This document shows, one piece after another, positions 1 to 39,296 of a DNA stretch of 64,000 bases (within the stretch, counting starts at the first letter, position 1; every line of letters starts with the position of its first letter). Under the pieces are notes generated by a model that did no database searches, had not been told where the DNA came from, and saw nothing but the letters and a program-made list of their open reading frames with translations. The position numbers and the translations under genes were made by a program. Source of the DNA: Mumia sp. zg.B17 (GTDB taxonomy: Bacteria; Actinomycetota; Actinomycetes; Propionibacteriales; Nocardioidaceae); the NCBI RefSeq assembly GCF_019550915.1, contig NZ_JAHWCI010000004.1:1-64000 (forward strand). The letters run 5' to 3'.

Positions 1-60
1 CCCCGGCGGCGGGGGCGCCCGCCCGGGCGGCGCCCGCCCGCCGGGGGGGGCCCCGGCCGG
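1..60. other. C/G-only low-complexity sequence at window edge
   Basis: The first 60 bases consist only of C and G, with runs of up to eight G. Genuine coding sequence downstream has about 30% A+T, so this looks like a sequencing or assembly artefact at a contig end rather than real gene sequence. It stays open in the permease frame, so it cannot be used to place the start of that gene. Confidence 0.5.
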
Positions 61-950
61 GCGGTCGGCGGCGCCACGGTCCCCCCGGAGAGCCGCGAGC
101 GGTCGCGTACCTCTACATCCTCCCCGGGTTCGTCGTCCTCACGCTCTTCCTGCTTGCCCCGCTGGCATACGCCGTGTGGCTGTCGTTCTTCGCGTGGGAC
201 GGGCTCTCCCCCGGCACCTGGGTCGGCCTTCAGAACTACGCCGACGTGCTGACCGACCCGACGTTGCGCGCCCCGTTCGGGCACGCCCTCGTCCTCGTCG
301 TGTTCTTCTCGCTCGTCCCCGTCCTCCTCGGACTGCTCGCCGCGTCGCTTCTGATGCGGTCGACCGTCCGCGGCCGAGGCGTCTTCCAGGCGGTCGTGTT
401 CGTGCCGCAGGTGATCGCCCTGACGGTCGTCGCGGTGGCGTGGAAGCGGATCCTCGCCCCCGACGGGCCGCTCAACGAGGCCCTCCGCGCGATCGGTCTC
501 GACGGCCTCACCCGCGGCTGGCTGGGCGACCCCGACACCGCCCTCGTCGCCATCGGCGTCGTCGGGACGTGGCTCGGGACGGGACTGTGCACCGTGCTCT
601 TCCTCGCGGGCCTCTCGCGGGTGCCGCGCTCGATCTACGACGCCGCCCGTCTCGACGGCGCCGGGTTCTTCCGCGAGACATTCGCGATCAGCCTGCCCTC
701 GCTGCGCAACGAGCTCGCCGTCGCCCTGACGCTGACGATGGTCGCCGCGCTGCGGACGTTCGACCTCGTCTATCTCATGACCTCCGGCGGCCCGGGCGGC
801 GCGAGCGCGGTCCCGGCGTACGAGGTCTACATGAAGTCGATGCGCCAGGGCGAGGTCGGCACCGGCGTCACGATCGCGCTGATCCTGGCGGCGTTCATCA
901 TGCTCCTCACCGTGCTGGTCAACCGGATCCCCGAGCGGGAGGAGCGATGA
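3..950 (+). CDS. sugar ABC transporter permease, MalF/UgpA type, 5' partial
   Basis: Inner-membrane permease of a carbohydrate-uptake ABC transporter (CUT1 family), pairing with the next gene. The frame stays open to the left edge. Convincing family sequence (VAYLYILPGF, then a first membrane helix) starts near position 102, so the GTG at 174 is internal and the true start is missing or hidden in the low-complexity edge. The cytoplasmic EAA loop that contacts the ATPase is visible as YDAARLDGAGFFRETF around 640-690, followed by ISLPSL. The stop overlaps the ATG of the second permease by 4 nt. The solute-binding protein, and probably an upstream regulator, should lie left of the window; no ATPase is visible, as is common when a shared MsiK-type ATPase is used. 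Confidence 0.88.
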   Translation, partial: PAAGAPARAAPARRGGPRPGGRRRHGPPGEPRAVAYLYILPGFVVLTLFLLAPLAYAVWLSFFAWDGLSPGTWVGLQNYADVLTDPTLRAPFGHALVLVVFFSLVPVLLGLLAASLLMRSTVRGRGVFQAVVFVPQVIALTVVAVAWKRILAPDGPLNEALRAIGLDGLTRGWLGDPDTALVAIGVVGTWLGTGLCTVLFLAGLSRVPRSIYDAARLDGAGFFRETFAISLPSLRNELAVALTLTMVAALRTFDLVYLMTSGGPGGASAVPAYEVYMKSMRQGEVGTGVTIALILAAFIMLLTVLVNRIPEREER

Positions 951-1756
951 GCGAGCCTCGCCTCGAACGCAGCGTCACGATCGTCGTGCTCGCCCTCGGC
1001 ACCGTGGTCGCGCTCTTCCCGATCGCGATGATCGTCGCGTCGGCGTTCGTCTCCGACAACCCCAACGAGACCGGGATCGTCTGGAGCAACCTCGCCACGG
1101 CGTGGGACGAGGGCCACTTCTCGACCTACATGCGTTCCAGCGTGATCGTCACCGTCTGCGTGGTGGTGCTGGCGACGGCGCTCTCGTGCCTGCTCGGCTA
1201 CGCGTTCGGGACGATGCGGTTCCGCGGGTCCTCGGTGCTGTTCTACGTGCTGCTGCTCGGCCTGATGGTCCCCAACGAGGCCATCGTCGTCCCGCTCTAC
1301 TACCAGCTCCGCGACCTCGGCCAGACCAACACCTACCAGGCGCTGATCTTCCCGCAGGTCGCTCAGTCGCTGGCCTTCGGCACGTTCTGGATGAGGGCCT
1401 ACTTCCGCGGCACCTCGCGCGAGCTCGTCGAGTCGGCCCGGCTCGACGGCGCCGGCCACTTCCGCGTCTTCTGGTCGATCCTGCTGCCGATGGGCCGTCC
1501 GGCGATCATCACGATGGTCGTGCTGTTCTCGATGTGGACGTGGAACGAGTTCCTCCTGCCGCTGGTGATGATCCCCAGCAACGAGGACCTCCGGACGGCG
1601 CCGCTCGGGCTGACGTTCTTCAGCGGGCAGTACACCGGCTCGCCGTCGCTGCTCGCCGCGGCCGCGCTCATCGTGGCGCTGCCGATGCTCGTGCTCTTCC
1701 TGGTCGCGCAGCGGCACTTCATCCGCGGCATGACCGAGGGGGCGGTCAAGGGCTGA
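947..1756 (+). CDS. sugar ABC transporter permease, MalG/UgpE type
   Basis: Second permease (269 aa) of the CUT1-type transporter. I chose the ATG at 947 because it overlaps the upstream stop (ATGA) and gives the usual MalG length; a longer open frame starting at 176 is a shadow of the first permease. It begins with a hydrophobic helix (TIVVLALGTVVALFPI), contains about six membrane segments, and has the EAA loop ESARLDGAGHFRVFWSILLP near residues 165-185. Its partners are the upstream permease and a substrate-binding protein outside the window. The catabolic genes that follow suggest an amino-sugar or oligosaccharide substrate; the exact sugar cannot be read from the sequence. Confidence 0.92.
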   Translation: MSEPRLERSVTIVVLALGTVVALFPIAMIVASAFVSDNPNETGIVWSNLATAWDEGHFSTYMRSSVIVTVCVVVLATALSCLLGYAFGTMRFRGSSVLFYVLLLGLMVPNEAIVVPLYYQLRDLGQTNTYQALIFPQVAQSLAFGTFWMRAYFRGTSRELVESARLDGAGHFRVFWSILLPMGRPAIITMVVLFSMWTWNEFLLPLVMIPSNEDLRTAPLGLTFFSGQYTGSPSLLAAAALIVALPMLVLFLVAQRHFIRGMTEGAVKG

Positions 1757-1804
1757 CCCGCTCAGCCGCACGTCGACGATCGACCGAGAACCAGAGGGGG
1801 ACTC

Positions 1805-4639
1805 ATGATCCAGCGCACCACGAACACCATCGACTCCGGCGGTGCCGCACCACCACGATGGCGCAGGCTCGCCACGACGTCGGCAGCCGCGGCCTTGCTC
1901 GGCGCAGGGCTCGTCGCCGGCCCGGCCGCCGCGGCACCGGCGTCGTCCGGTCACGCCGACCGGCCCAGCACGGGGAGGCACTCGACGGCAACCGATCTCG
2001 ACGTGCTCTTCGTGGGTGCCCACCCCGACGACGAGTCGGGACGGCTCTCGACCTTCGGCCAGTGGGGCGAGCAGTTCGGAAGTCGCGTCGGCGTCGTCAC
2101 CATCACCCGCGGCGAGGGCGGTGGCAACGCGGTGGGTCCCGAGGAGGGCCCTGCGCTCGGCGTCATCCGCGAGCGTGAGGAGCGCGCTGCGGTGGGCACC
2201 GCCGGCGTCGAGGACGTGTTCAACCTCGACAAGGTCGACTTCTACTACTCGGTCAGCGCGCCGCTGCACCAGCAGGCGTGGGACGAGGAGGACACGCTCG
2301 AGCGACTGGTCCGGATCGTCCGTGAGACCCGTCCCGACGTCGTGGTGACGATGACCCCGGCCCCCACCCCCGGCAACCACGGCGGCCACCAGCAGGCCGC
2401 GCGGCTGGCCGCGGAGGCGTACGCCGTCGCCGGCGACCCGCGGCGCTTCCGCTCGCAGATCACGAAGGAGGGCCTGCGCGCGTACGCGCCGGACAAGCTC
2501 TTCCTGAACTCCGCCCGCGGCTCCGGCCCCGCCGGGTCGTCGTGCCCTCGCGCGTTCACCCCGACCGACCCGACCGACGACGTGTACGGCGTGTGGGCCG
2601 GCGGGCGGTCGGCCAGCGGCAAGACCTGGGCGCTCGTCGAGCGCGAGGCGCAGCGCAAGTACGCCTCGCAGGGCTGGGCCGGGTTCCCCGACCCCAGCAC
2701 GGACCCCCAGGCGATCGGGTGCGACTACTTCACCCAGGTCGCCTCGCGCGTGCCGTTCGCCCGAGGCGACCAGTCGGCCGCCGCGGCGTCCCCGGCAGCG
2801 ATGCTCCACGGTGCGGTGCTCCAGGCTCCGCGCGGGCTTCCGCTCGGCACCGGACTCGAGCTCACCGGCGAGACGGTCGACCTCGTACCCGGGCAGAGCG
2901 TGACGCTCACCGCGCGCCTCACCGCTCCCCCGCGCGCCCGCCTGGTCCAGGCGACCGGCACCGTGGTCCTCCCCGAGGGGTGGCGCGGGACGCGGTCCGT
3001 CAGGTTCGGGACCGTGCCGCGCGGACGGACGGTCACCCGCCAGGTCACCGTCACGGCGCCGGCCGACGCCGCGCCCAACACCCGGGCGCTCATCGGGCTC
3101 GACGTCCGCTCCGGCTCACGGACGGGCTACACCAACCAGAAGCTGTCGGTGACCCCGGACGTGTCCGGGACCCAGCAGCTCCTCCCCCAGGTCGCAGAGT
3201 TCGAGGCCTGGGCGCCGACGGTGGGCCTCCCGCAGCTCCGTGGGCTGGTCGCGCCGGTCCTGACCCTGCCCAGCGGCGGAAGCCGTACGGTCGGGATCGA
3301 CGTCACCAACCGCAGCGACACCCCGCAGTCCGGCACGGTGACCGTGGACCTGCCCGACGGCTTCGCGACGGCCGACGACACCGTCGCGTACGAGGACCTT
3401 GCGCCCGGGGCGACGCAGCGCGTCGAGATCGAGGTCACCAACACCGACGACACGCTCCCGACGTCCAACGAGGGCGGGGCCGGCGGTGACTACGCCTACA
3501 CGATCACCACGACCAGCACCTCTGGCTCCTCCACCGCCACGGCGGCGCTCGAGCTGGTGCCGACGGCACAGGTCGGCGAGACGGCGGCGCCGACGCTCGA
3601 CGGTACGGTCGCCCCCGGGGAGTACGCCTCGACGCTCGATCTGTCGCGGCGGTGGGAGGGCGACGCCTGCACCTCGCCTGCCGACTGCAGTGCGACCGGC
3701 TACGTCACCCGTGCGGGCGACGATCTCTACGTCGCCGCCGAGGTGACCGACGACGTCAAGAGCGCCGTGCTCGCGGCGTCGGACTGCAAGCGTCACTGGC
3801 GCGTCGACTCCCTCGAGGTCGCCATCGACCCGACGGGGACGTCGGAGAACACCTCCACCACCTTCAAGATCGGGGCTCTCCCGTTCACCGCCGAGGGTCA
3901 GTCGTGCGCCGCCCGCGACGCCGACAACCGCCAGGGCCCGATCGGAGCGTTCCCGATGGCCGGGGAGGGCGGCTCGGACGAGACGACGCTCGACCCGGGC
4001 AACGTGGCGCCAGGGTTCGAGATGGCGTCAGCCGTGACCGCGCCCTACACGGGCTACGTCATCGAGATGAAGATCCCGCTGTCGGCGCTGCCGGCGACGG
4101 TCGACCCCGACCGCATGGGCTTCAACATGTTCGTCTACGACTCCGACACCCAGGACAAGGCGGGCCAGACGCGGCTCGGGTGGTCCACGTGGGGTGGCGT
4201 CCAGGGCGATCCCTACCGGTGGGGTCGCGTCGAGCTCGGCGGGGGTGCGACGCCGCAGGTCGAGACCACGCCGCCGACGCTGGACTTCCCGGCGCTCGAC
4301 AGCCTCGACTCGCCGCAGTCGGTCGAGCAGGCCGTACGCTCCGGCGTCGGGCTCTCCGGCCTGCCGACCCTCGACCCGAGGCGGACCGCGCGCGTGGTCC
4401 GGGCGACGGTCCGGGGAGGTACGGCCATCGTGACCGTGGACGTGCGGCAGCGAGGCACCGCGCACCTCTTCGCGGTCGCGGGCGCCGATGCTCGCGAGGT
4501 CGGCTCGACCGAGGTCGCGCTGCGGCCCGGACGACACCAGGTCCGCATCCCGGTGACGGCGCGGCCCACGTCGGTGCTCCTCGGGTTCGATCCTGACCGC
4601 TCCGAAGGCACTGCGAGCTCGTCGGTGAGGGTGCGGTGA
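1805..4639 (+). CDS. secreted PIG-L/LmbE-family N-deacetylase with accessory domains
   Basis: Predicted zinc-dependent N-deacetylase (944 aa) of the GlcNAc-PI de-N-acetylase superfamily. An N-terminal export signal (RWRRLATTSAAAALLGAGLVAGPAAAA, here split by RR and an Ala-rich core) is followed by the catalytic domain. That domain shows the metal motif AHPDDE at about residues 71-76 and a second ligand motif HGGHQQ near 190-195. Downstream are two NEW3-like beta-sandwich stretches (roughly 350-440 and 470-560), a CBM9-like sugar-binding domain (about 590-810) and a C-terminal beta-rich segment. The size is far above the ~250-300 aa of simple LmbE proteins. It lies 48 nt after the permease and overlaps nagB by 4 nt, so deacetylation of an extracellular N-acetyl amino sugar is a fair inference. 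An AGAGGGGGA ribosome site precedes the ATG. Confidence 0.85.
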   Translation: MIQRTTNTIDSGGAAPPRWRRLATTSAAAALLGAGLVAGPAAAAPASSGHADRPSTGRHSTATDLDVLFVGAHPDDESGRLSTFGQWGEQFGSRVGVVTITRGEGGGNAVGPEEGPALGVIREREERAAVGTAGVEDVFNLDKVDFYYSVSAPLHQQAWDEEDTLERLVRIVRETRPDVVVTMTPAPTPGNHGGHQQAARLAAEAYAVAGDPRRFRSQITKEGLRAYAPDKLFLNSARGSGPAGSSCPRAFTPTDPTDDVYGVWAGGRSASGKTWALVEREAQRKYASQGWAGFPDPSTDPQAIGCDYFTQVASRVPFARGDQSAAAASPAAMLHGAVLQAPRGLPLGTGLELTGETVDLVPGQSVTLTARLTAPPRARLVQATGTVVLPEGWRGTRSVRFGTVPRGRTVTRQVTVTAPADAAPNTRALIGLDVRSGSRTGYTNQKLSVTPDVSGTQQLLPQVAEFEAWAPTVGLPQLRGLVAPVLTLPSGGSRTVGIDVTNRSDTPQSGTVTVDLPDGFATADDTVAYEDLAPGATQRVEIEVTNTDDTLPTSNEGGAGGDYAYTITTTSTSGSSTATAALELVPTAQVGETAAPTLDGTVAPGEYASTLDLSRRWEGDACTSPADCSATGYVTRAGDDLYVAAEVTDDVKSAVLAASDCKRHWRVDSLEVAIDPTGTSENTSTTFKIGALPFTAEGQSCAARDADNRQGPIGAFPMAGEGGSDETTLDPGNVAPGFEMASAVTAPYTGYVIEMKIPLSALPATVDPDRMGFNMFVYDSDTQDKAGQTRLGWSTWGGVQGDPYRWGRVELGGGATPQVETTPPTLDFPALDSLDSPQSVEQAVRSGVGLSGLPTLDPRRTARVVRATVRGGTAIVTVDVRQRGTAHLFAVAGADAREVGSTEVALRPGRHQVRIPVTARPTSVLLGFDPDRSEGTASSSVRVR

Positions 4640-5382
4640 CGCAACCTCTCGGAGCCACCGCCCGCCACCTGGTCCGCGACGACGCGGACCAGGTGGCGGC
4701 GACGGCCGCCGACCTGATCCTCGAGGCGTGCGACGACGAGTGCTCGGTCGGGCTGGCGACCGGATCGTCCCCGCTCGGCGCGTACGACGAGATCGTCCGA
4801 CGCGTCAGGGCGGGGACGGCGCCGCGCCGGGTGGCGCGACGCGGCTATCTCCTCGACGAGTACCTCGGCCTCCCCGTAGGCGACCGGAACTCGTACGCGT
4901 CGGTCATCCGGCGCGAGGTCGCCGACGCCCTCGGCCTCGAGGTCCGGGGCCCGGACGGGCAGGCCGCCGACCCCGACGCCGAGGCCGAGCGCTACGGGCG
5001 CGAGGTGGCGGAGGCGAGGGTCGCCGTGCAGGTCCTCGGGATCGGGCGCAACGGGCACCTCGGGTTCAACGAGCCCGGATCGGCGCTCGACTCCCGCACC
5101 CGGGTCGTCCGGCTCACCGAGACCACCCGGCGCGACAACGCTCGCTTCTTCGACTCCCTCGCCGAGGTCCCCACCCACGCCATCACGCAAGGCCTCGGCA
5201 CCATCATGCAGGCACGGCGCCTCGTCCTGATCGCCCTGGGTGAGCGCAAGGCCGACGCCGTACGCGCCGCTCTGCACGGACCGGTCGACCCCGCCTGCCC
5301 AGCCTCGGTGCTGCAGCGGCATCCCGACTCCTACCTCGTCACCGACCGGGCGGCCGCGGGTGAGCCAGGAGCGGACCGATGA
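4636..5382 (+). CDS. nagB: glucosamine-6-phosphate deaminase
   Basis: Converts glucosamine-6-phosphate to fructose-6-phosphate and ammonia in the cytoplasm (248 aa, usual family length). Family motifs are clear: GSSPLGAYDEIV near residue 35, YLLDEYLGL near 70, and the active-site segment GIGRNGHLGFNEPGS near 135-149 with the catalytic His and Glu. The position of the Asp found in the E. coli enzyme carries Asn; I recall the Asn form from Gram-positive homologues, so I do not treat it as a defect. The GTG start overlaps the upstream stop (GTGA) and the 3' end overlaps the oxidase gene. It supplies the link from the deacetylated amino sugar to glycolysis. Confidence 0.92.
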   Translation: MTQPLGATARHLVRDDADQVAATAADLILEACDDECSVGLATGSSPLGAYDEIVRRVRAGTAPRRVARRGYLLDEYLGLPVGDRNSYASVIRREVADALGLEVRGPDGQAADPDAEAERYGREVAEARVAVQVLGIGRNGHLGFNEPGSALDSRTRVVRLTETTRRDNARFFDSLAEVPTHAITQGLGTIMQARRLVLIALGERKADAVRAALHGPVDPACPASVLQRHPDSYLVTDRAAAGEPGADR

Positions 5383-6602
5383 CCATGCGTCACGCCGTGA
5401 TCGGAGGCGGGATCCTCGGCGTCGCTGTCGCTCGGGAGCTGCTCCGCCGCGACCCGGCCGCGCACGTCACCCTGCTGGAGAAGGAGCCGGAGCTCGCCGC
5501 GCACCAGACCGGGCGCAACAGCGGCGTGGTCCATGCCGGGCTGTACTACGAGCCCGGGTCGGCGAAGGCCCTGATGTGCCGGCGAGGGGTGGCGCTGCTC
5601 GAGGCGTACTGCGAGGAGAAGGACATCCGGCGCGTCACGTGCGGGAAGGTGCTGGTCGCGCTCGACGACGACGAGCGCGCACGCCTGGCCGGGATCGAGC
5701 GTCGGGCCCTCGCCAACGGCGTCCCCGGGGTGCGGATCCTCAGCGCGGCCGAGCTCCGGGAGATCGAGCCCCATGTGGCCGGGATCGCCGCGCTGCACTC
5801 GCCGTCGACCTCGATCGTCGACTTCGCGGAGGTGACGCGAGCTCTCGCTGCCGACGCGGTGGCGGCAGGAGCCAGCCTGCGGCTCGGCCACGAGGTCACC
5901 GCCATCGGTCGGCGGGGGGCCGAGGTCGTCCTGGCGGTCGCGGCGGGCGGAAGCACCACCGACATCGCCTTCGACCACGTGGTGGCGTGCGGAGGTCTCC
6001 AGAGCGACCGGCTCGCCGCCATGGCGGGCGACGACCCCGATCCGGTGATCATCCCGTTCCGTGGCGAGTACTACGCCCTCCGCCCCGAGCGGCGCAGCCT
6101 GGTCAAGGGGCTCGTCTATCCCGTTCCCGATCCTCGCTACCCGTTCCTCGGCGTGCACCTCACGCCCCGCGTCGACGGCGAGGTCCTGGTCGGCCCCAAC
6201 GCCGTGCTCGCCCTCGCCAGGGAGGGGTACGACTGGCGCACCGTGTCCGCGCACGACCTGGCCCAGGTGGCTCGCAGCCCGGCGTTCTGGAGGTTCGCGC
6301 GTCACCACTGGCGGACCGGCGTGAGAGAGACGGCCGGATCGCTGAGCCGGCGTCGCTTCGTCGCCGCCGCCCGCGCATACCTGCCCGAGCTCGCCGACGA
6401 CGACGTGGTCCCCGGGCGGGCAGGCGTCCGAGCCCAGGCGCTCGACCGCGACGGCGGGCTCGTCGACGACTTCCGCATCACCGCACGCGAGCGCCTCGTG
6501 ATCCTCCGGAACGCGCCCTCGCCCGCTGCCACGTCCGCCCTTGCCATCGCCGAGCACGTCGGCAGCCTCGTCGCCGCATCCACCCGTACGGAGGACCTGT
6601 GA
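5379..6602 (+). CDS. FAD-dependent 2-hydroxyacid oxidase, LhgO-like
   Basis: 407-aa FAD oxidoreductase closely resembling L-2-hydroxyglutarate oxidase/dehydrogenase LhgO (DAO fold). The dinucleotide-binding GGGILG is at residues 7-12, followed by the LhgO signature HQTGRNSGVVHAGLYYEPGS near 43-63. The C-terminal half keeps the family segments GPNAVLALAREGY and NAPSPAATSALAIAEHV. LhgO oxidises 2-hydroxyglutarate to 2-oxoglutarate, but here the gene sits between nagB and an aldolase with 4-nt overlaps on both sides. A related 2-hydroxy (sugar) acid from the operon's own pathway is therefore a plausible alternative substrate. Family is certain; substrate is not. Confidence 0.88.
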   Translation: MTMRHAVIGGGILGVAVARELLRRDPAAHVTLLEKEPELAAHQTGRNSGVVHAGLYYEPGSAKALMCRRGVALLEAYCEEKDIRRVTCGKVLVALDDDERARLAGIERRALANGVPGVRILSAAELREIEPHVAGIAALHSPSTSIVDFAEVTRALAADAVAAGASLRLGHEVTAIGRRGAEVVLAVAAGGSTTDIAFDHVVACGGLQSDRLAAMAGDDPDPVIIPFRGEYYALRPERRSLVKGLVYPVPDPRYPFLGVHLTPRVDGEVLVGPNAVLALAREGYDWRTVSAHDLAQVARSPAFWRFARHHWRTGVRETAGSLSRRRFVAAARAYLPELADDDVVPGRAGVRAQALDRDGGLVDDFRITARERLVILRNAPSPAATSALAIAEHVGSLVAASTRTEDL

Positions 6603-7504
6603 ACGTCACGCTCGAACCAGGGCTGTGGGGCGTGCTCGCCACGCCCTTCGATACGGCTTTCGCCCTCGACCTTCCCTCGCTGCAGCGCGAGGTCGGGTCG
6701 TTCGTCGCCGACGGCTGCGACGGCCTGGTCGCGCTGGGCGTCTTCGGGGAGGCGGCGGCGCTGTCCGACGACGAGGCGGTCGCCGTCGCACGCACCGTGG
6801 CGGCGAGCACCGACCTCCCGTACGTGCTGGGGTTGTCGGAGCGCGACCCCGAGCAGGTCGTACGACAGGCCGACCGCCTGCTCGCCTCGGTGCCCCGACC
6901 GCCGGTCGCCGTGATGGCTCAGATCAACGACCCCGATCCCGGGTCGGTGGCGGCGTCGCTGCGCCGGCTGCACGAGGAGACAGGATCAGCGGTGCTGCTC
7001 CAGGACTACCCCGTGGTCTCCGGCATCACCGTCCCTGACGAGACGGTCGTCGCGATCGCCCGGGCGTGTCCGTTCGTCGTCGGCGTCAAGTCCGAGACTC
7101 CCCCGACGTCGCTCGCGGTCGCCCGCCTGACGGCTGCCCTGGACGTGCCGATCTTCGGTGGGCTGGGAGGAGTCGGGCTCCTCGACGAGCTGATGGCGGG
7201 CTCGGCCGGCGCGATGACCGGATTCAGCCATCCGGCCGCGCTCGCCGCCGTCCTGAGGTCGTACCGGGACACCGGCTTCGAGGACGCCCGGGCGCAGTGG
7301 GCGCCGTGGCTTCCGCTCGCCACCTTCGAAGGCCAGGTCGGCATCGGCCTGTCGATCCGCAAGGAGCTCTTGCACCGGCGCGGGATCCTCGGCACCAGTC
7401 GCGTCCGTCCGCCCGCGCGTGCCCTCCCGCCCGAGCTCGTCCCGCTCCTCGAACGCCACCTGGCCACCGTCCCGGCGTCCGGGCCCCTCTCGTCCGCCCT
7501 CTGA
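6599..7504 (+). CDS. DapA/NanA-superfamily class I aldolase
   Basis: 301-aa member of the dihydrodipicolinate synthase/N-acetylneuraminate lyase family. These enzymes form a Schiff base between a lysine and pyruvate or another 2-keto acid. The expected lysine is in VGVKSE near residue 163 and the partner tyrosine in LLQDYPVVSG near 137. The usual GTTGE loop is replaced by GVFGEAAAL near 45-53, so it is not a standard DapA. The GTG start overlaps the oxidase stop. In this context it is more likely a catabolic 2-keto-3-deoxy-acid aldolase or dehydratase than a lysine-biosynthetic enzyme. That is inference from neighbours; a true dapA would normally lie elsewhere with dapB. Confidence 0.85.
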   Translation: MNVTLEPGLWGVLATPFDTAFALDLPSLQREVGSFVADGCDGLVALGVFGEAAALSDDEAVAVARTVAASTDLPYVLGLSERDPEQVVRQADRLLASVPRPPVAVMAQINDPDPGSVAASLRRLHEETGSAVLLQDYPVVSGITVPDETVVAIARACPFVVGVKSETPPTSLAVARLTAALDVPIFGGLGGVGLLDELMAGSAGAMTGFSHPAALAAVLRSYRDTGFEDARAQWAPWLPLATFEGQVGIGLSIRKELLHRRGILGTSRVRPPARALPPELVPLLERHLATVPASGPLSSAL

Positions 7505-7517
7505 AGGAGGACCGCCC

Positions 7518-8369
7518 GTGCGACTCTCGACCATCCAGCTCAACGGCCGACCGACCGCGTGCGTGACCGTCGCCGAGGGACTCGCCCGGATCGACCAGGT
7601 GCTCCCCGGGGCGCCGGACGACGTGATGACTCTCCTCGAAGGCGACCGTCTCGGCGAGCTCGCCCGCGCGATCGCTGCCGGCGTCGACACCTCTGCCCTG
7701 GTCGATCCCGAAGGAGCGGTGCTCACGCCTTGGACGCGGCCGCGCAAGATCCTCGGCATCGGGCTCAACTACCGGGCGCACGCGGGTGACCTCGGCGAGG
7801 AGGCACCCCGTACGTCGCCGGCCTCGTTCCTCAAGGCCGACCACACCATCGTCGGGCCCGGCGAGCCGATCGTCGTCCCCGGCGACCTCGGCACGGTGAC
7901 CTCGGAGGCCGAGCTCGGTCTGGTCGTCGGCCGGCCCTGCTACCGCGTCAGCGTCGACGAGGCGATGGCGTACGTCGCGGGGGTCGTCGCGGTGCTCGAC
8001 CAGACGGCCGAGGAGGTCCTCCTCGAGAACCCCCGCTATCTGACCCGGGTCAAGAACTACCCCACCTTCTTCGCCTTCGGGCCCGAGCTGATCACCCTCG
8101 ACGAGGTGCTGGCGGAGGGGCCGCTGGAGGATCTACGCGTCGCAACGATCCACAACGGCGCGGTCCACCGCGAGGACGTGGTGGGCGGCATGACGTTCTC
8201 CCCCGCAGAGCTGCTGAGCTTCCACAGCCACGTCATGCCGTTCTTCCCTGGCGACATCCTGTCGACCGGGACACCGGGCGCCGTGGCGATCCAGGCGGGC
8301 GACACCGTGCGGTGCGAGCTCGGCGACGGGCTCTCCTTCCTGGAGAACCCGGTCAGGTCGGTCGGGTGA
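7518..8369 (+). CDS. fumarylacetoacetate hydrolase family protein
   Basis: 283-aa FAH-fold enzyme. The GTG at 7518 is chosen because a strong GAAGGAGG ribosome site lies 7 nt upstream; a longer frame from 7419 runs back into the aldolase. It shows the family segments GIGLNYRAHAGDLGEEAP, FLKADHTIVGPGEPIVVP and the metal-binding VTSEAELGLVVGR, and ends with FPGDILSTGTPG. Relatives hydrolyse acylpyruvates such as fumarylpyruvate or 2,4-diketo-3-deoxy sugar acids, or decarboxylate oxaloacetate. Directly after an aldolase and a 2-hydroxyacid oxidase, cleavage of a diketo-deoxy acid to pyruvate plus a small acid is a reasonable but untested role. Confidence 0.88.
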   Translation: MRLSTIQLNGRPTACVTVAEGLARIDQVLPGAPDDVMTLLEGDRLGELARAIAAGVDTSALVDPEGAVLTPWTRPRKILGIGLNYRAHAGDLGEEAPRTSPASFLKADHTIVGPGEPIVVPGDLGTVTSEAELGLVVGRPCYRVSVDEAMAYVAGVVAVLDQTAEEVLLENPRYLTRVKNYPTFFAFGPELITLDEVLAEGPLEDLRVATIHNGAVHREDVVGGMTFSPAELLSFHSHVMPFFPGDILSTGTPGAVAIQAGDTVRCELGDGLSFLENPVRSVG

Positions 8370-10283: not shown

Positions 10284-13200
10284 ATGTCGACTCGGGTCCT
10301 GACCGCGCCCTACGGGCGAGCCGCACTCGACGCGCTGACCGCGGTGGTCGCCGAGGCCAAGGGCACCGACCCCATGGCGCCCGTCACCGTGCTCGTGCCG
10401 ACCAACGTCGCCGGGATCGTCGCGCGGCGTCACCTCGCTCTGGGCCTGCGCGACGGCGCGCCCGGTGTCGCCGCGCTGACCGTGACCACCCTGCCCCGGC
10501 TCGCCGAGCAGGTCGCCGCGGCCCGGATGGACCCTCGACGGCCGGCGACGCAGCCGGTCCTCGCCGCCGCGTGGCGCCAGGCGCTCGACCAGGACCCCGG
10601 CGTCTTCGCTCCGGTGACCGACCATCCCGCGACGATCCGTGCCCTGGTCGCCGCTCATCGAGAGCTCCGCGACCTCTCCCCGGGCGGCCGCGCCCGTGCG
10701 CGCGACTCCACGGGCCTCTCGGCCGACCTCATCCGCCTGCACGAGCAGGTGGTGGCCCTCACCGACCCCGTGTCGTACGACGCGACCGACCTGCTGCGCG
10801 AGGCAACCCGTCTCGTGGAGCAGGGCGCCCCGGGCGCCGCCCCGCTCGGTGCGGTCGTCCTCTTCCTTCCCCAACGCCTCACCCGGGCCGAATCGGGACT
10901 CGCGCGTGCGCTGGCCGGGACGTCCGACTGCGTCGTCGTCGCGGGCATGACGGGGGTTCGGCGCGCGGACTCCGCCGTCCGTCACAGCCTCGATCTCATG
11001 GGGCTCGCTGTCCCGGAGGAGACGGCCGTCCCTCGCCCTGTCGCCTCTCGGGTCCTGCACGCCTCCGATGCCGACGACGAGGTCCGCTGCGTCGTGCGCG
11101 AGGTCGTCGCAACCCTGGACCGAACGCCCGCGCACCGGGTCGCCATCCTCTATGGCGCCCGCGTCCCCTACGCGCGCCAGCTCCACGAGCACCTCGAGGC
11201 GAGCGGGCTCACCGTCAACGGCCCGGCGACCCGCGCCGTGCAGGAGCGCGCGATCGCACGCGGTCTCCTCGGCATCCTCGACGCCGGCCGGACCGGTCTC
11301 GGCCGGGCGGACACGTTCACCGCACTCGCCGAGGCACCGGTGCTCGCCTTCTCCGACCGGCGCGTCCCGGTCTCGCGGTGGGAGCGGATCTCACGGCGCG
11401 CGGGCATCGTCGGACGAGGCGACTGGCGCACGCGTACGACCACCTTCATCGCCGACCAGCTGCGGCTCAAGGACCAGGAGCTCGCGCAGGAGAGCCCGCG
11501 CGAGGGACTTGTCGCGGCCGCCGATCGGGAGATCGGCGCCGCCGGCGCGATGCTGGAGTTCGTCGACCTCCTCGAGCAACGGTTCGAGGAGGCCGCGCGG
11601 ATCAGCCGCTGGCAGGACCTGCGCACGTGGGCGCTCGACCTCCTTCACGACCTGTACGGGACGTCCGAGGCGTGGGCCGCGCTCCCTGCCGAGGAGCAGT
11701 ACGCCGCGGTCGCGGTCGAGTCGGCGATCCACGGTCTGGCGGCGCTGGACGCGTTCGAGCTCCCGGTCGACGTCGAGACGCTCGCGGAGATCCTTGCCGT
11801 CGAGCTGGAGTCTTCGCTCCCCCGCGTCGGTCGCTACGGCGAGGGAGTCTTCGTCGGTCCGGTGTCGGCAGCGGTCGGCATGGACCTCGACGAGGTGTTC
11901 GTGCTCGGTCTGAGCGAGGACTCGTTCCCTGGCCGCCTGCACGAGGACGCGCTGCTCAGCGACACGCTCCGCACGGCCACCGGCGAGCTGGATCCTCTCC
12001 GCTCGACCCTCGACGACAAGCAGCGCCACCTCCTCGCTGCGCTGGCCGCGGCGCCGAGGTCGACCGCGTCCTTCCCGCGGGGCGACCTGCGGCGCAGCAC
12101 CACGCGGATCCCGAGCCAGTTCCTGCTTCCCAGCCTGCGCGAGCTCACCGGCAACAAGGAGCTCGCGGCGACCGAGTGGGACCACCCGGACAAGCACCGC
12201 GCGTCCACCGACGGACTCCTCGTCGGCAGCCGCTCCTTCGCCGACGGCATCCTCACGACCGACCTCCCGGCGTCCGAGCAGGAGTGGCAGATCCGCGCCG
12301 CAGCCAGCGGGACCCTGCTCGCGCCGGAGCCCGCTGCGCTGCTGTCCGCGGCACGTGCCCTGATCGACGCACGCGCGAGCACCCGGTTCACCCGTTACGA
12401 CGGCAACCTCGCCGGTGCGGCCGGCCTTCCCGACTACGCGCACAGCGATCAGGTGGTCTCACCCACCGCCCTCGAGTCGTACGCGCGGTGTCCCTTCGCC
12501 TACTTCGTCCAGCGACTGCTCCGCGTGGAGCCCTTGGAGCAGCCCGAGGAGATCGTCCAGATCTCGGCGGCGGAGATCGGCACCCTGGTGCACGGCGCGC
12601 TGGATGCCCTCATCACCGAGAGCGCCGGCGCCGGCACTCTCCCGTCGTACGCCGAACCCTGGACCACGTCGCAGCACCAGCGGCTGCAGGAGCTCGTCAC
12701 CGAGCGTGCGATCGATCTCGTCGAGCGCGGGCTCACCGGCCACCGGCGGCTGTGGGAGGCCGAGCTGGACGCCCTGCGGCAGGTGGTCGCACGCATGCTC
12801 GTGGACGACGACGTCTATCGGGCGCGGCGTGACGCCGAGGTGGTCCGAAGCGAGCTCGAGTTCGGCATCGGGAGCGATCGAGACCCCGTCGCTGTCGCAC
12901 TGCCGGACGGTCGGCTGCTGATGCGCGGCAGTGCGGACAAGGTCGACCGGACACGTGACGGCGTCCTTCTGGTCACCGACGTGAAGACCGGCCGGGCGGA
13001 CCCGTTCCGTGAGCTGGGGCAGGACCCGGTCGCCGCCGGGACAAAGCTCCAGCTCCCCGTGTACGCGCTGGCGGCGCGTGAGCGCGTCGCCGACAAGCCG
13101 GTCACCGGTGTCGAGGCGATGTACTGGTTCGTCCGCCGCAACGCCGGTGAGCGGATCCCGGTCACGCTCGACGACGATCTCGAGACGCGCTACGCCCAGA

Positions 13201-35624: not shown

Positions 35625-37262
35625 ATGTCCGCGTTCCAGGACACACTCAGCGTGTTGCTCAAGGCGCGGTTCGCCATCCTCTACGTGGAGACGTTCGAGG
35701 AGCGCCGGGTCGAGCACGAGATCGCCGCGGCTGTCGGACCTGAGGGACTGCTCCCCAAGGCCCGCCCGGTCTTCGGCTGGAGCATCACGACCGGACTCGT
35801 CGACCCGGACGGGGCGGCACAGGGCAACACGACCGAGCCGGCCCGAGCTCTCGAGTCGATCCAGCGGCACACCCAGCCCGCCGTCTTCGTCTTCCGCGAC
35901 CTCCACGCGCACCTGGGTGACGGGAACCGGCCGGCCGACCCAGCGATCGTTCGCCGGCTGCGTGACGTGGCGGCCGCCTTCCAGCAGGGCACCAGCGCCC
36001 GGTCGCTCATCCTGGTCTCCCCCGTGGTGCGGATCCCTCCAGAGCTCGAGAAGGACGTCTACGTCCTCGACTTTGCCCTCCCCGGCGAAGCCGACATCCG
36101 CGCGATCCTCGACAGCATCATCGCGAGCAACGCCGACGGCGGCAGGATCAAGGTCAACGTCGACGAGCCCGACAAGGACCGGATGATCAAGGCGGCCCTC
36201 GGGCTCACCGAGCTGGAGACCGAGGGCGCGTTCGCGCGTGCCATGGCCAGCAACGGACAGCTCGACGCCAGCGACATCGACGTCGTCATCCAGGAGAAGC
36301 GACAGACCGTCCGCAGGAGCGGGGTCCTCGAGTACGTCCCGTCCGACCTCGATCTCACGCAGGTCGGCGGGCTGGAGAACCTCAAGCGCTGGCTCGGGCG
36401 GCGCGCCGACTCCTGGCTCGCCGAGGCCCAGGAGTACGGGGTGCCTGCACCGAAGGGTGTCCTCATCACCGGCGTGCCCGGCTGCGGCAAGTCACTCACC
36501 GCGAAGGCCGTGGCCTCCGCCTGGGGGATGCCCCTGCTCCGCCTGGACATCGGCAAGGTGTTCGCCGGCCTCGTCGGCTCGAGCGAGCAGAACATCCGGA
36601 GCGCGATCCGAGCGGCCGAGGCTGCCGCACCGGCCGTTCTGTGGATCGACGAGATCGAGAAGGGCTTCGCCGGCGTGTCCGGCGGCGGAGGTGACTCCGG
36701 GACGTCGGCTCGGGTGTTCGGCACGTTCTTGACCTGGATGCAGGAGAAGTCCACGCCGGTCTTCGTGATCGCGACCGCCAACGACGTCCAGTCCCTGCCA
36801 CCCGAGTTCCTCCGCAAGGGCAGGTTCGACGAGATCTTCTTCGTCGACCTTCCCGATCCGGTCGAACGCGACGAGATCTGGCGGCTCCAGATGATCAAGC
36901 ACATCGGCAACGCCCCCGCGCACGCCTCCTTCACGCCGGACGACCAGCTGGTCGCCGATCTCGTCGACGCGACACAGGACTTCTCGGGTGCCGAGATCGA
37001 AGAGGCCGTCATCGCGTCCCTCTTCGACGCGTTCGCGCAGAAGCGCGCGATCCGGGGAGCCGATCTGAGACTCGCGGTGGAGCGGACGGTCCCCTTGAGC
37101 ATCACCCAGCGGGAGGCGGTCGCCGCGATGCGTTCGTGGGCGGGCCGACGCGCTGTCTCGGCCAGTCTGCAGACCGCACTACGCGAGCCCGACGTCGCGC
37201 CCGGCCCCGTCCCGGAGATTCCCGCACCTTTCGAGTCCGGTGGACGCCGGATCGACTACTAG
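35625..37262 (+). CDS. AAA+ ATPase, Ycf46 type
   Basis: 545 aa. The ATG at 35625 has GAGGGGGG 5 nt upstream. Residues 1-230 form a degenerate, non-ATP-binding N-terminal AAA-like domain (FAILYVETFEERRVEHEI; VFVFRDLHAHL). The second half is a classical AAA+ module: Walker A GVPGCGKS near 283, Walker B VLWIDEIEKGF near 338, sensor-1 region VIATANDVQSLP near 380, arginine-finger RKGRFDE near 396, and a C-terminal helical lid. This layout matches Ycf46 of cyanobacteria and plastids, also present in other bacteria and large phages, with unknown function. It heads the operon with Ycf35-like and DUF2997 genes. It is probably a hexameric remodelling ATPase; its client is unknown. Confidence 0.85.
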   Translation: MSAFQDTLSVLLKARFAILYVETFEERRVEHEIAAAVGPEGLLPKARPVFGWSITTGLVDPDGAAQGNTTEPARALESIQRHTQPAVFVFRDLHAHLGDGNRPADPAIVRRLRDVAAAFQQGTSARSLILVSPVVRIPPELEKDVYVLDFALPGEADIRAILDSIIASNADGGRIKVNVDEPDKDRMIKAALGLTELETEGAFARAMASNGQLDASDIDVVIQEKRQTVRRSGVLEYVPSDLDLTQVGGLENLKRWLGRRADSWLAEAQEYGVPAPKGVLITGVPGCGKSLTAKAVASAWGMPLLRLDIGKVFAGLVGSSEQNIRSAIRAAEAAAPAVLWIDEIEKGFAGVSGGGGDSGTSARVFGTFLTWMQEKSTPVFVIATANDVQSLPPEFLRKGRFDEIFFVDLPDPVERDEIWRLQMIKHIGNAPAHASFTPDDQLVADLVDATQDFSGAEIEEAVIASLFDAFAQKRAIRGADLRLAVERTVPLSITQREAVAAMRSWAGRRAVSASLQTALREPDVAPGPVPEIPAPFESGGRRIDY

Positions 37263-37273
37263 GACGGACGCGC

Positions 37274-37726
37274 ATGAGTCTTGAGATCCTGCTGATCCCT
37301 CTTGCCATGGCGGCCGTCGGCGCCGCCAAGGCAGCGATCGACGACGGTCCGCGGGGCCTGGGGCCGAGGGAGCTGACGGTCCGGTCACGACTGAGCGACG
37401 GAAGCCTGGTCGCCGGAGCACTCGCCGATCTGGACGCGACGGTGAGCGTGACGAGTCCCGACGAGATCCGTGCGTCCTTCGATGCGCGCGCCCTGTCGCT
37501 GGACCGTAACGACGAGGGCCTGTGGGTCGCCCGCTTCGACGAGACCTGGACCGAGGAGGAGGCCCTGGGTCTCGTCACGGACCTCGACGCGGCCTACGGC
37601 GTGTGCGTTCAACGCGAGGTCGTACGCAAGATTCGGGAGCGAGCACCGGCGGCCGGCCTGTCCATCGCCGAGGAGTCGGTGGACGACGACGCCGTCACCC
37701 TGGTGCTGGACGTGAGGAGCGACTGA
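37274..37726 (+). CDS. Ycf35/DUF1257-like protein
   Basis: 150 aa. The ATG at 37274 is 11 nt after the AAA+ stop, with GGACG upstream. A short hydrophobic N-terminus (ILLIPLAMAAVGAAKAAI) is followed by a domain whose second half tracks Ycf35/DUF1257. A line reading F-D-A..L-LDRNDEGLWVARFDE is followed by AYG and then VVRKIRERAPAAGLSIAEE and DDDAVTLVLDV, like the family's C-terminal 'aeeqGftveeEev..dG.i.Lvl'. The similarity is divergent and judged by eye. Context (Ycf46 before, DUF2997 after) raises confidence. The stop shares one base with the next ATG (TGATG). Confidence 0.65.
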   Translation: MSLEILLIPLAMAAVGAAKAAIDDGPRGLGPRELTVRSRLSDGSLVAGALADLDATVSVTSPDEIRASFDARALSLDRNDEGLWVARFDETWTEEEALGLVTDLDAAYGVCVQREVVRKIRERAPAAGLSIAEESVDDDAVTLVLDVRSD

Positions 37727-37941
37727 TGGCGACACGCAAGCAGCTCCGCGTTCGTGTCGCGCGAGACGGCACGGTCTCGGCCGAGACGATCGGGTTCACC
37801 GGTCCGGAGTGCCTGGATCAGGTGGCCGTGCTCGAGGATCTCCTCGACGCGCTCTCGAGCTCCAGCTCCTTCACCGAGGAGTACTGGCAGACCGACCACG
37901 TCCAAGAGGAGGGGCAGAGCCTTGACACAGGACGCGGGTGA
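37726..37941 (+). CDS. DUF2997 domain protein
   Basis: 71 aa. It starts at the ATG of the TGATG junction. The segment LRVRVARDGTVSAETIGFTGPECLDQVAVLEDLLDAL follows the DUF2997 pattern (basic/acidic beta-strand with dGtv, then G-x-x-C and a helix L..LE..LG). The single conserved Cys is in GPECLD. DUF2997 proteins usually sit beside DUF1257 and AAA+ genes, as here. Biochemical role unknown. Its 3' end overlaps the next gene by 20 nt. Confidence 0.75.
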   Translation: MATRKQLRVRVARDGTVSAETIGFTGPECLDQVAVLEDLLDALSSSSSFTEEYWQTDHVQEEGQSLDTGRG

Positions 37942-38683
37942 CATCCTTCTCGCTCAGCAGTCGACCCGGTGGAAGGTGGCGAACAGCCTCTGGCTCGCCG
38001 TCCTCGTGCTGGGCTTCGGGTGCTTTTCCTTCGTCGGCTGGATCTGGGCGGCACTGCTCGCGCAGTCACGGGTGGTCTCGCGGGCGGCAGTGCTCTGGAG
38101 CAGCCTCGGGATTGCCGTTTTCATCGCCATCGGCGCGACGCCGGGCACTGAGGCCGACCCCTACGAGATGGCCGAGCCCTGGGGCACGATCGTGATCGTG
38201 GCCATGGCCGTGGCGTGGGTCGGAGGCCTCATCCACGCAGGGATTCTCTGGCGTACCGTCCTCAAGGAGCGCCTACTCCGGCTGGACCGGATCGCCTGGG
38301 CGGTCGCCGAGCACCGGAGTTCTCAGCCGCCGGTCCCATGGTCGACCTCGCCCCCACCTCCCCCGGCGCCCTTCCTCGGAGTCAGCGCAGCCGACTACTA
38401 CGGGCCACCGACCTCCGCGCCTCCTCCGCAGCCCCCCGCCTACCTCGACATCAACGCCGCCCCCGCCGACGCCATCGCGTTCCTCCCCCGCATCGGTCCC
38501 CAGGTCGCCGGGCAGATCGTCGCTGCCCGCACTCGCACGGGCGGGTTCCGTGACCTCGACGACCTCGCAACCTCCGCACAGCTCCAACCGCACCAGGTCG
38601 CCGGGATCCGGGGCTCCGTGACGTTCGGGCCCTTCAACCCTCAGCGACCACCTCAGGGTCCTGGGCGTGTCCTCGACATCTAG
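37922..38683 (+). CDS. membrane protein with C-terminal ComEA-like helix-hairpin-helix domain
   Basis: 253 aa from a TTG at 37922 preceded by GAGGAGGGG; no ATG or GTG fits better, and the overlap with the DUF2997 gene supports coupling. Three hydrophobic segments lie near residues 20-45, 50-70 and 85-110, followed by a proline-rich linker (residues ~130-165). The C-terminal domain YLDINAAPADAIAFLPRIG ... IVAARTRTGGFRDLDDL is the ComEA-type HhH, which in ComEA binds DNA at the membrane. Here it could tether the module to the membrane or bind nucleic acid or protein. Part of the Ycf46 operon; the stop overlaps the radical-SAM gene. Confidence 0.75.
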   Translation: MTQDAGDILLAQQSTRWKVANSLWLAVLVLGFGCFSFVGWIWAALLAQSRVVSRAAVLWSSLGIAVFIAIGATPGTEADPYEMAEPWGTIVIVAMAVAWVGGLIHAGILWRTVLKERLLRLDRIAWAVAEHRSSQPPVPWSTSPPPPPAPFLGVSAADYYGPPTSAPPPQPPAYLDINAAPADAIAFLPRIGPQVAGQIVAARTRTGGFRDLDDLATSAQLQPHQVAGIRGSVTFGPFNPQRPPQGPGRVLDI

Positions 38684-39296
38684 CCCCGTGCGGGTCGCTC
38701 GCTCGATCCCCCGGACGACGGCCGAAGGCCCCGGCACCCGCTTCGCGCTGTGGGTGCAGGGCTGCACCCTGCAGTGCCCGGGCTGCTTCAACCCTCACCT
38801 CTGGACCCAGCGCGGTGGCGACCTCGTCGCCCCGGAGACCTTGCTCGACGCTGTTCCCGCCGATGTCGAAGGCGTCACGCTGCTGGGTGGGGAGCCGTTC
38901 GAACAGGCCGGCCCTCTCGCCGTCTTCGCAGCCCTGGTCCGGCAACGTGGACAGAGCGTCATGACGTTCACGGGGTTCACCCTCGACGACCTCCGGAGGA
39001 AGGAGAGCGGCGACGTCGACGCGTTGATCGCGCAGACCGACCTGCTCGTCGACGGGCCCTTCCTCAAGGATCAAGTCGACCTTGCGAGGCCATGGGTCGG
39101 TTCGCGCAATCAGCGCTTCCACGCGCTCGGACCGCGATACCGCACGCTCGTCGACGAGCTCGACGGCATCGGCGATCGTCTGGAGATCCGCGTGAGCGCC
39201 GACGGGACCGTCAGCGTGAACGGGTGGGCGCCGACCGCCACCCTCGACCTGATCTTGGCGGACCTCGGCCGCAGGCAGTCGCGGACGCGACGATGA
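38667..39296 (+). CDS. NrdG-like radical-SAM / 4Fe-4S single-cluster protein
   Basis: 209 aa. Cluster motif C33-x3-C37-x2-C40 (GCTLQCPGCFNP) and the SAM-binding LLGGEPFEQA near 77 define a small activase-type radical-SAM fold, as in NrdG. No anaerobic ribonucleotide reductase (nrdD) is present, so it is probably not a true NrdG. The GTG at 38667 overlaps the HhH gene; a second in-frame GTG at 38688 is an alternative. Last gene of the Ycf46/Ycf35/DUF2997 operon. It may install or use a radical modification on another operon protein; that is inference. Confidence 0.82.
   Translation: MSSTSSPVRVARSIPRTTAEGPGTRFALWVQGCTLQCPGCFNPHLWTQRGGDLVAPETLLDAVPADVEGVTLLGGEPFEQAGPLAVFAALVRQRGQSVMTFTGFTLDDLRRKESGDVDALIAQTDLLVDGPFLKDQVDLARPWVGSRNQRFHALGPRYRTLVDELDGIGDRLEIRVSADGTVSVNGWAPTATLDLILADLGRRQSRTRR

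Follow-up and report, generated by a model that had tools for sequence, protein, structure and literature searches.

What could a Ycf46-type AAA+ ATPase, a DUF1257 (Ycf35)-like protein, a DUF2997 protein, a membrane protein and a radical S-adenosylmethionine (SAM) enzyme be doing together? The question is raised by a locus of Mumia sp. zg.B17, in the 64,000-nucleotide stretch of contig NZ_JAHWCI010000004.1 that we analysed (the window), where five plus-strand genes, here called A to E, form one tight operon at 35625-39296; an 11-base gap separates A from B, and the B/C, C/D and D/E junctions overlap by 1, 20 and 17 bases, respectively (gene boundaries throughout are those of mechanical open reading frames, ORFs). 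No molecular mechanism has been assigned to Ycf46, Ycf35 and DUF2997 despite their conservation in cyanobacteria and red-algal plastids, and the module links these families to both a radical-SAM enzyme and a membrane protein. A preliminary description of this DNA had noted the close packing of the five genes in one direction and named their families; both hold, the latter by Pfam matches, profile alignment and motif conservation. The operon is real, and it is more interesting than that description said, owing to two features beyond it: A and D end in a common C-terminal peptide, and the module is absent from congeners and from most of its class.

A C-terminal peptide common to A and D

A (35625-37262, plus strand, 545 amino acids) ends in G-R-R-I-D-Y-stop (37242-37262, plus strand), found by a pattern scan of its own genome, and D (37922-38683, plus strand) ends in G-R-V-L-D-I-stop (38663-38683, plus strand), the same motif encoded by different codons. 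We defined a strict tail as R-x-[LIVM]-[DE]-[FYWLIVM]-COOH and counted it over 88 loci or records; it is carried by 65 of 66 D-type ORFs (the remaining one has one extra residue), by 52 of 88 A proteins and by 5 of 2237 other ORFs of at least 100 amino acids, all five in these same clusters. All five are hydrophobic; four (in L012, L042, L055 and L060) have no helix-hairpin-helix (HhH), and the one in L045 has an Mrr_cat nuclease domain (3.4e-21). D proteins end in GRVLDI in the window, GRMVDF in Neobacillus, ERSVDL in Melainabacteria-like bins and GRLLDW in others, while their middle parts differ; A proteins end in GRRIDY in the window and in RGGRTLDF and similar peptides elsewhere. The pattern has eight matches in the window's own genome, and a true stop follows the hydrophobic residue only in A and D. 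With two of the eight genuine, we dropped the idea that the tail marks many clients genome-wide.

On A, the tail goes with D. We took the best 80 loci of a GTDB scan with A, a biased draw since similarity to A decided the choice; the profiles for B, C, D and E come from the loci in which these families were then counted. Of the 49 loci with D, 44 have an A whose tail takes the form G-R-x-h-[DE], versus 1 of the 31 without D (Fisher 1e-15, uncorrected for relatedness). The tail also occurs on A alone: Y-Q-R-x-E-F is present once per genome, at the end of A, in six of six cyanobacterial genomes, and among five phage or virus records, scanned by stretches, four show A as the sole strict-tailed ORF and the fifth shows none. 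A Pfam search gave neither DUF2997 nor DUF1257 in 16 records whose A is tailed, several of these records being short fragments. In 12 other genomes, matches to a looser pattern were about as many as in a reversed control.

A itself matches Pfam AAA (2e-30), with a degenerate first AAA-like domain, in which no Walker A is visible on reading the sequence, and an active-looking second one. The cyanobacterial loci L062-L085, whose ATPases we take to be Ycf46, a name supported by the adjacent DUF1257 gene, align with A over almost its full length at 43-47% identity; by this similarity, and by its degenerate N-terminal half followed by an AAA domain, A belongs to the Ycf46 type. The predicted model of A has a tandem AAA fold like that of p97, and its alignment begins at p97 residue 209, that is, without the p97 N-domain.

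Our preferred reading, held tentatively and at somewhat under even chances, is that the products of the operon form a protein-remodelling machine, tethered to the membrane and coupled to radical-SAM modification, with the tail as a docking peptide. A would assemble into a p97-like AAA+ ring, its flexible C-terminus ending in the conserved peptide, which we propose to be the element that docks. Since A has the peptide even where we found no second tailed protein, the peptide would most likely bind the A ring, at a site on an adjacent subunit. D-type membrane proteins would copy the peptide, dock at the same site and so hold the ring at the membrane, and their docking may free or block A's own tail. 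B, with its hydrophobic N-terminus, could be a second membrane-side cofactor, and E would modify C, or a client presented by the ring, by means of SAM and a 4Fe-4S cluster. If the docking reading is true, it would be a case of bacterial AAA+ adaptor recruitment by copying of the ATPase's own tail, and it would explain why tailed membrane proteins have multiplied in some genomes (seven in L035); either way, a six-residue tail is an experimental handle. In its widest form, that radical-SAM-coupled p97-like machines in at least six phylum-level groups recruit membrane proteins with interchangeable middles (HhH, TPR, GYF, Mrr nuclease or none) by tail mimicry, the proposal is possible but doubtful.

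Several observations weigh against this reading. The strict tail is absent from 36 of 88 A proteins, and a looser rule leaves 61 of 81 viral rows without one; where E lies near A in viral contigs (15 rows), only the row that also has D shows the tail on A. Near A in the viral loci L162, L178 and L189 there are four ORFs with the tail but without likeness to D, two of them apparently related to each other. Pattern matches in 12 genomes gave 30 loci; a tailed ORF is present in six of these, at the module in five cases and away from it in one (L242). In the monomer model of A the tail docks nowhere (it is left disordered, and we dropped the idea of a tail resting inside the monomer). The receptor of the tail may alternatively be a host factor or B. 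C retains its Gly and Cys in L061, L067 and L070, with no E found nearby, and the weakest step is the action of E on C, for which the whole argument is adjacency and invariant residues. Since most viral A, and the A of phage A-C-E sets, have no tail, the tail is not needed for joint work of A, C and E; it fits D best.

Some radical-SAM enzymes modify peptide C-termini, and the tail could instead be the substrate of E, which would act on the R-x-h-D-aromatic peptide that ends both A and D. The association of the A tail with D, and of D with E (present with D in 47 of 49 of the 80 loci; L024 and L030 are at contig ends), speaks for this, and the tail has mostly Asp in E-containing loci and Glu in cyanobacterial A. 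Tailed cyanobacterial A proteins nevertheless have no E near, tailed phage A proteins have no partner that we could find, and untailed A stands alongside E in 14 of the 15 viral rows as well as in L048 and L097. We regard modification of the tail by E as improbable, and retain docking as the preferred role.

Distribution of the module across genomes and mobile elements

Is the five-gene arrangement peculiar to this genome? B, C, D and E accompany A in 69, 50, 49 and 51 of the 80 loci, respectively (one E, in L049, is a reverse-strand ORF ~3 kb off), and all five families are found together in 43. These 43 loci belong, by record title or tree label, to Actinomycetota, Bacillota, Melainabacteria, Bacteroidota, Armatimonadota and Fusobacteriota, several being metagenome bins, and their gene orders include DEABC (16 loci), ABCDE (9), CDEAB (4) and others. 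The A-B-C-D-E order is also annotated on Paenarthrobacter and Rhodococcus plasmids, and two further Micrococcaceae plasmids have a matching layout in which a tailed hypothetical protein replaces D. The genes are thus a coherent unit kept beyond close relatives, as the preliminary description had suggested; what it had named as damaging to its case, a lack of DUF1257 and DUF2997 similarity or of a conserved neighbourhood, is not what we found. Its statement that Ycf46, Ycf35 and DUF2997 co-occur in cyanobacteria and some phages is partly borne out: A and B are adjacent in 16 of the 80 loci, all cyanobacterial, and no C, D or E was found near them, but a review puts DUF2997 with ycf35 in cyanobacteria (PMC4284462).

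Upstream of A in the cyanobacterial loci L062, L072, L077, L080 and L085 lies an ORF of 110-123 amino acids with a CxxC pair and a DNA-binding look, ending in (E)LVPC or similar. We had considered a ferredoxin gene beside cyanobacterial A and dropped it, as the upstream ORFs of five loci look DNA-binding or zinc-ribbon-like by eye.

Closer to home the module is rare. A search of 58 genomes of relatives, the own genome included, found A at 1e-40 solely in the latter, with five congeners among the misses. In an unbiased draw from the class, A was present in 8 of 393 genomes at 1e-60; one of the eight carriers is the own genome with all five genes, another has B, C and E, no D and an internal stop in A, and six have A alone inside the stretch taken. 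We also dropped the notion that the DUF2997 module is frequent in Actinobacteria, since among 396 genomes from that phylum 3 gave a match and 2 of these passed the cut-off. In a tree of A made by a quick method (85 rows), every D-containing row lies on one side of a 59-row branch (Shimodaira-Hasegawa-like approximate likelihood ratio test, SH-aLRT, 95), and the window A is a long branch. Six phylum-level groups combined with rarity among relatives indicate an old module that comes and goes, so that we describe it as a widespread but patchy accessory unit, old, gained and lost.

Mobile elements carry it too. Relatives of A were found in 1220 plasmid records (624 covering at least 80% of A) and 114 phage records (39 covering at least 80% of A). 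A plasmid search for DUF2997 with C as query returned nothing, though plasmid clusters do carry DUF2997 genes, because so short a query is insensitive.

This mobility, together with the nuclease variant in L045, makes an anti-phage or inter-element conflict system the main rival to the docking machine: the AAA+ ring would hold or release a membrane effector, with E a regulatory or effector enzyme. Such a role would suit the patchiness of A (1 of 58 genomes in the search of relatives, 8 of 393 in the class) and its presence on plasmids and in viral contigs. It would also suit the tailed Mrr-nuclease protein of L045 (7809-8549), which lies near the PADLOC candidate PDC-S06 (6.7e-85; 10780-12388), and the E-like proteins found in a plasmid cluster with a helicase, a PIN nuclease and another AAA+ ATPase. 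PADLOC (2023 library), however, gives A only a generic AAA+ match (IetA, 9.6e-22) and B to E none at 0.01; the neighbours in the window are ABC-transporter and enzyme genes; and in L036 the module stands upstream of an operon that we read as that of an F-ATPase. A further point against it is that the cyanobacterial Ycf46, in passages of PMC7496141 that cite other work, figures in stress and carbon use, not in defence. We judge a conflict role unlikely.

Some individual loci are worth recording. The Gastranaerophilales module (L036:4110-8631) is directly upstream of this F-ATPase-like operon. On a Klebsiella plasmid (L096:5918-9684), A stands with DUF2997 and two small ORFs in the vicinity of type IV secretion genes; this A ends in RKLAIED and a downstream 377-residue protein in KRKIILD. 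On a Paenibacillus plasmid (L097:6977-11199), A, DUF1257, DUF2997 and E form a cluster in which A ends in YRRISH and the next two proteins in SRVIHF and KRVIRL; these may be forms of one tail that diverged in concert. E-like proteins occur in another plasmid cluster, on five plasmids (L234, from Polaromonas, 1-6618; L235, L236, L237 and L241), with a large AAA-domain protein (AAA_12 in L234), a PIN-domain protein, an unknown protein of ~370 amino acids and an AAA_2 ATPase of ~620 amino acids. The PIN protein of L234 is weakly similar to MkoB (1.4e-4), and on the Acinetobacter plasmid L237 a thymidylate-kinase-like protein (VakA-like, 5e-19) and a viperin-like radical-SAM protein (1.1e-11) adjoin the cluster (6844-8348).

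The partner proteins B to E

B (37274-37726, plus strand, 150 amino acids) has a hydrophobic N-terminal stretch. On its own it gave no match to PF06868 (DUF1257) at E 0.01 in a Pfam search, and 2 of the 40 members of its alignment match DUF1257 weakly (best 0.0006). Its profile aligned with that of 16 cyanobacterial proteins, all 16 of which match PF06868 (hhalign 94.7%, E 5.7e-8), and on this profile evidence B is a divergent relative of DUF1257, below membership at the level of the Pfam model, in agreement with the preliminary assignment. M1 and S2 are invariant across the 40 aligned sequences; the structure model (83.6 by predicted local distance difference test, pLDDT) is low over the N-terminal 30 residues, and a search of solved structures by sequence found designed proteins at best (6w90, 4.2e-4). 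Cyanobacterial B is short and has no such hydrophobic N-terminus.

C (37726-37941, plus strand, 71 amino acids) had been assigned to DUF2997, and this was borne out by a direct Pfam match (PF11211, 4.8e-12; 46 bits against a cut-off of 24.1) and by alignment, in which G15, G26 and C29 are invariant (37 of 37). No solved structure was found for it by sequence (best 0.68). A DUF2997-like domain as the C-terminal part of E was considered and dropped, the hhalign match (43.6%) extending over 17 columns only.

D, with a TTG start inferred from reading the sequence, has three hydrophobic segments by a simple hydropathy count, a Pro-rich linker, and an HhH (HHH_3, residues 174-232, 38444-38620, plus strand) ahead of its tail. 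D and the hydrophobic N-terminus of B both fit the earlier suggestion that the machine acts at the membrane. That suggestion had been coupled with a ComEA-type DNA-binding domain and action on nucleic acid, and here one might propose a ComEA-type membrane DNA-handling machine in which the HhH of D binds DNA and the ATPase moves or remodels it. D does match HHH_3 (3e-10, Pfam) and, weakly, ComEA models (0.0018), so that a membrane protein with an HhH stands. The hairpin of the window D, however, reads R-I-G and not the G-h-G of a DNA-backbone-contacting hairpin, and among 65 aligned D domains the first glycine is kept in 56, the second in 11 and both in 7. Tailed membrane proteins with no HhH at all occupy the clusters L042, L055 and L060, and no competence or pilus genes were seen between 33000 and 42500 of the window. 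With the hairpin glycines mostly lost, DNA binding by D is doubtful, the domain is better seen as a probable protein-contact module, and a DNA-handling machine is very improbable; the suggested action on nucleic acid through this domain is not supported. Other D variants combine GYF_2 with HhH (L019) or have six HhH repeats (L058), L045 has a 926-residue TPR protein whose HhH is reported by the locus-built profile alone, and L035 has seven HhH ORFs with the tail.

E (38667-39296, plus strand, 209 amino acids; GTG start, alternative start 38689) matches Fer4_12 (5.8e-33) and falls below the cut-off for Radical_SAM (22.3 versus 29.5 bits) in Pfam. Its iron-sulphur motif C-x3-C-x2-C (38763-38786, plus strand; C33, C37 and C40) and its GGEP are invariant in 39 of 39 aligned sequences, and by these motifs (C-x3-C-x2-C, GGE) E is a member of the radical-SAM superfamily, as first described. 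Could it simply be an NrdG that activates an anaerobic ribonucleotide reductase and sits in the cluster by accident? NrdG is its best NCBIfam match (1.3e-27) and all 39 aligned E proteins match that model. The window E nonetheless scores 96.6 bits against an equivalog cut-off of 126.1, its alignment shows a C-terminal extension beyond the NrdG-like part, NRDD is absent from the own genome (99.97% complete; a control search was positive in 6 of 14), and E accompanies A in 51 of 80 loci, the distant one in L049 included. We find an ordinary NrdG scarcely credible. The nearest solved relative of E by sequence is pyruvate formate-lyase activating enzyme (4.6e-20).

E matches lie near A in 15 rows of viral contigs, of which 9 reach the C-terminal extension (3 of these 9 being near-copies); there C directly adjoins E in L160, and the two genes overlap by 4 bases in L165. 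Adjacency to E and the invariant Gly and Cys residues make C our first candidate for the substrate of E.

Comparison with known systems

The closest known set is Ycf46, Ycf35 and DUF2997 of cyanobacteria and red-algal plastids, the same families as A, B and C. Cyanobacterial Ycf46 even has an R-containing hydrophobic end, QR[LM]EF, in 14 of the 80 loci; the sets differ in that the 16 cyanobacterial loci have A and B only, with no D or E near, and a short B. According to a review (PMC4284462), DUF2997 and ycf35 cluster with a ferredoxin gene in cyanobacterial genomes. According to parts of PMC7496141, cyanobacterial ycf46 belongs to a stress operon responding to iron and other limitations (citing earlier work), and loss of Ycf46 lowers the activity of the carbonic anhydrase EcaB (citing Jiang 2015); in red algae, a section of PMC5940233 reports, retention of ycf35 and ycf46 tracks habitat. 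The cyanobacterial stress operon and this retention by habitat make a stress role plausible for the module.

The literature that we searched, to which subscription journals and preprints were mostly outside, held no five-part form with tail mimicry and no paper joining ycf46 with radical SAM. Within it, Ycf46-DUF1257-DUF2997 clusters and AAA+ remodelling are known, and the five-part form and the shared tail are new.

Individual partners have known counterparts from which they depart. E resembles NrdG and other glycyl-radical activating enzymes in its radical-SAM Cys motif, GGEP and size, but differs in scoring under the cut-off, in its C-terminal extension and in a genome with no NRDD. D resembles ComEA-type proteins as an HHH_3 on a membrane-anchored protein, but its hairpin glycines are mostly lost and its tail is common with the ATPase.

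For A the comparison is with p97/Cdc48/VCP, whose tandem AAA fold its predicted model shares; A differs in having no N-domain and no visible Walker A in its first AAA domain, and its tail motif is unlike the p97 PIM as given in a passage of PMC6995525. C-terminal peptides on AAA+ ATPases are described in bacteria as well, the actinobacterial proteasome ATPases ending in GQYL (a passage of PMC6017811). According to PMC6995525, PUB domains bind the C-terminal PIM peptide of p97, and PIM peptides also occur on OTULIN and SPATA2. By analogy, the tail logic that we propose for A and D would parallel that of eukaryotic p97.

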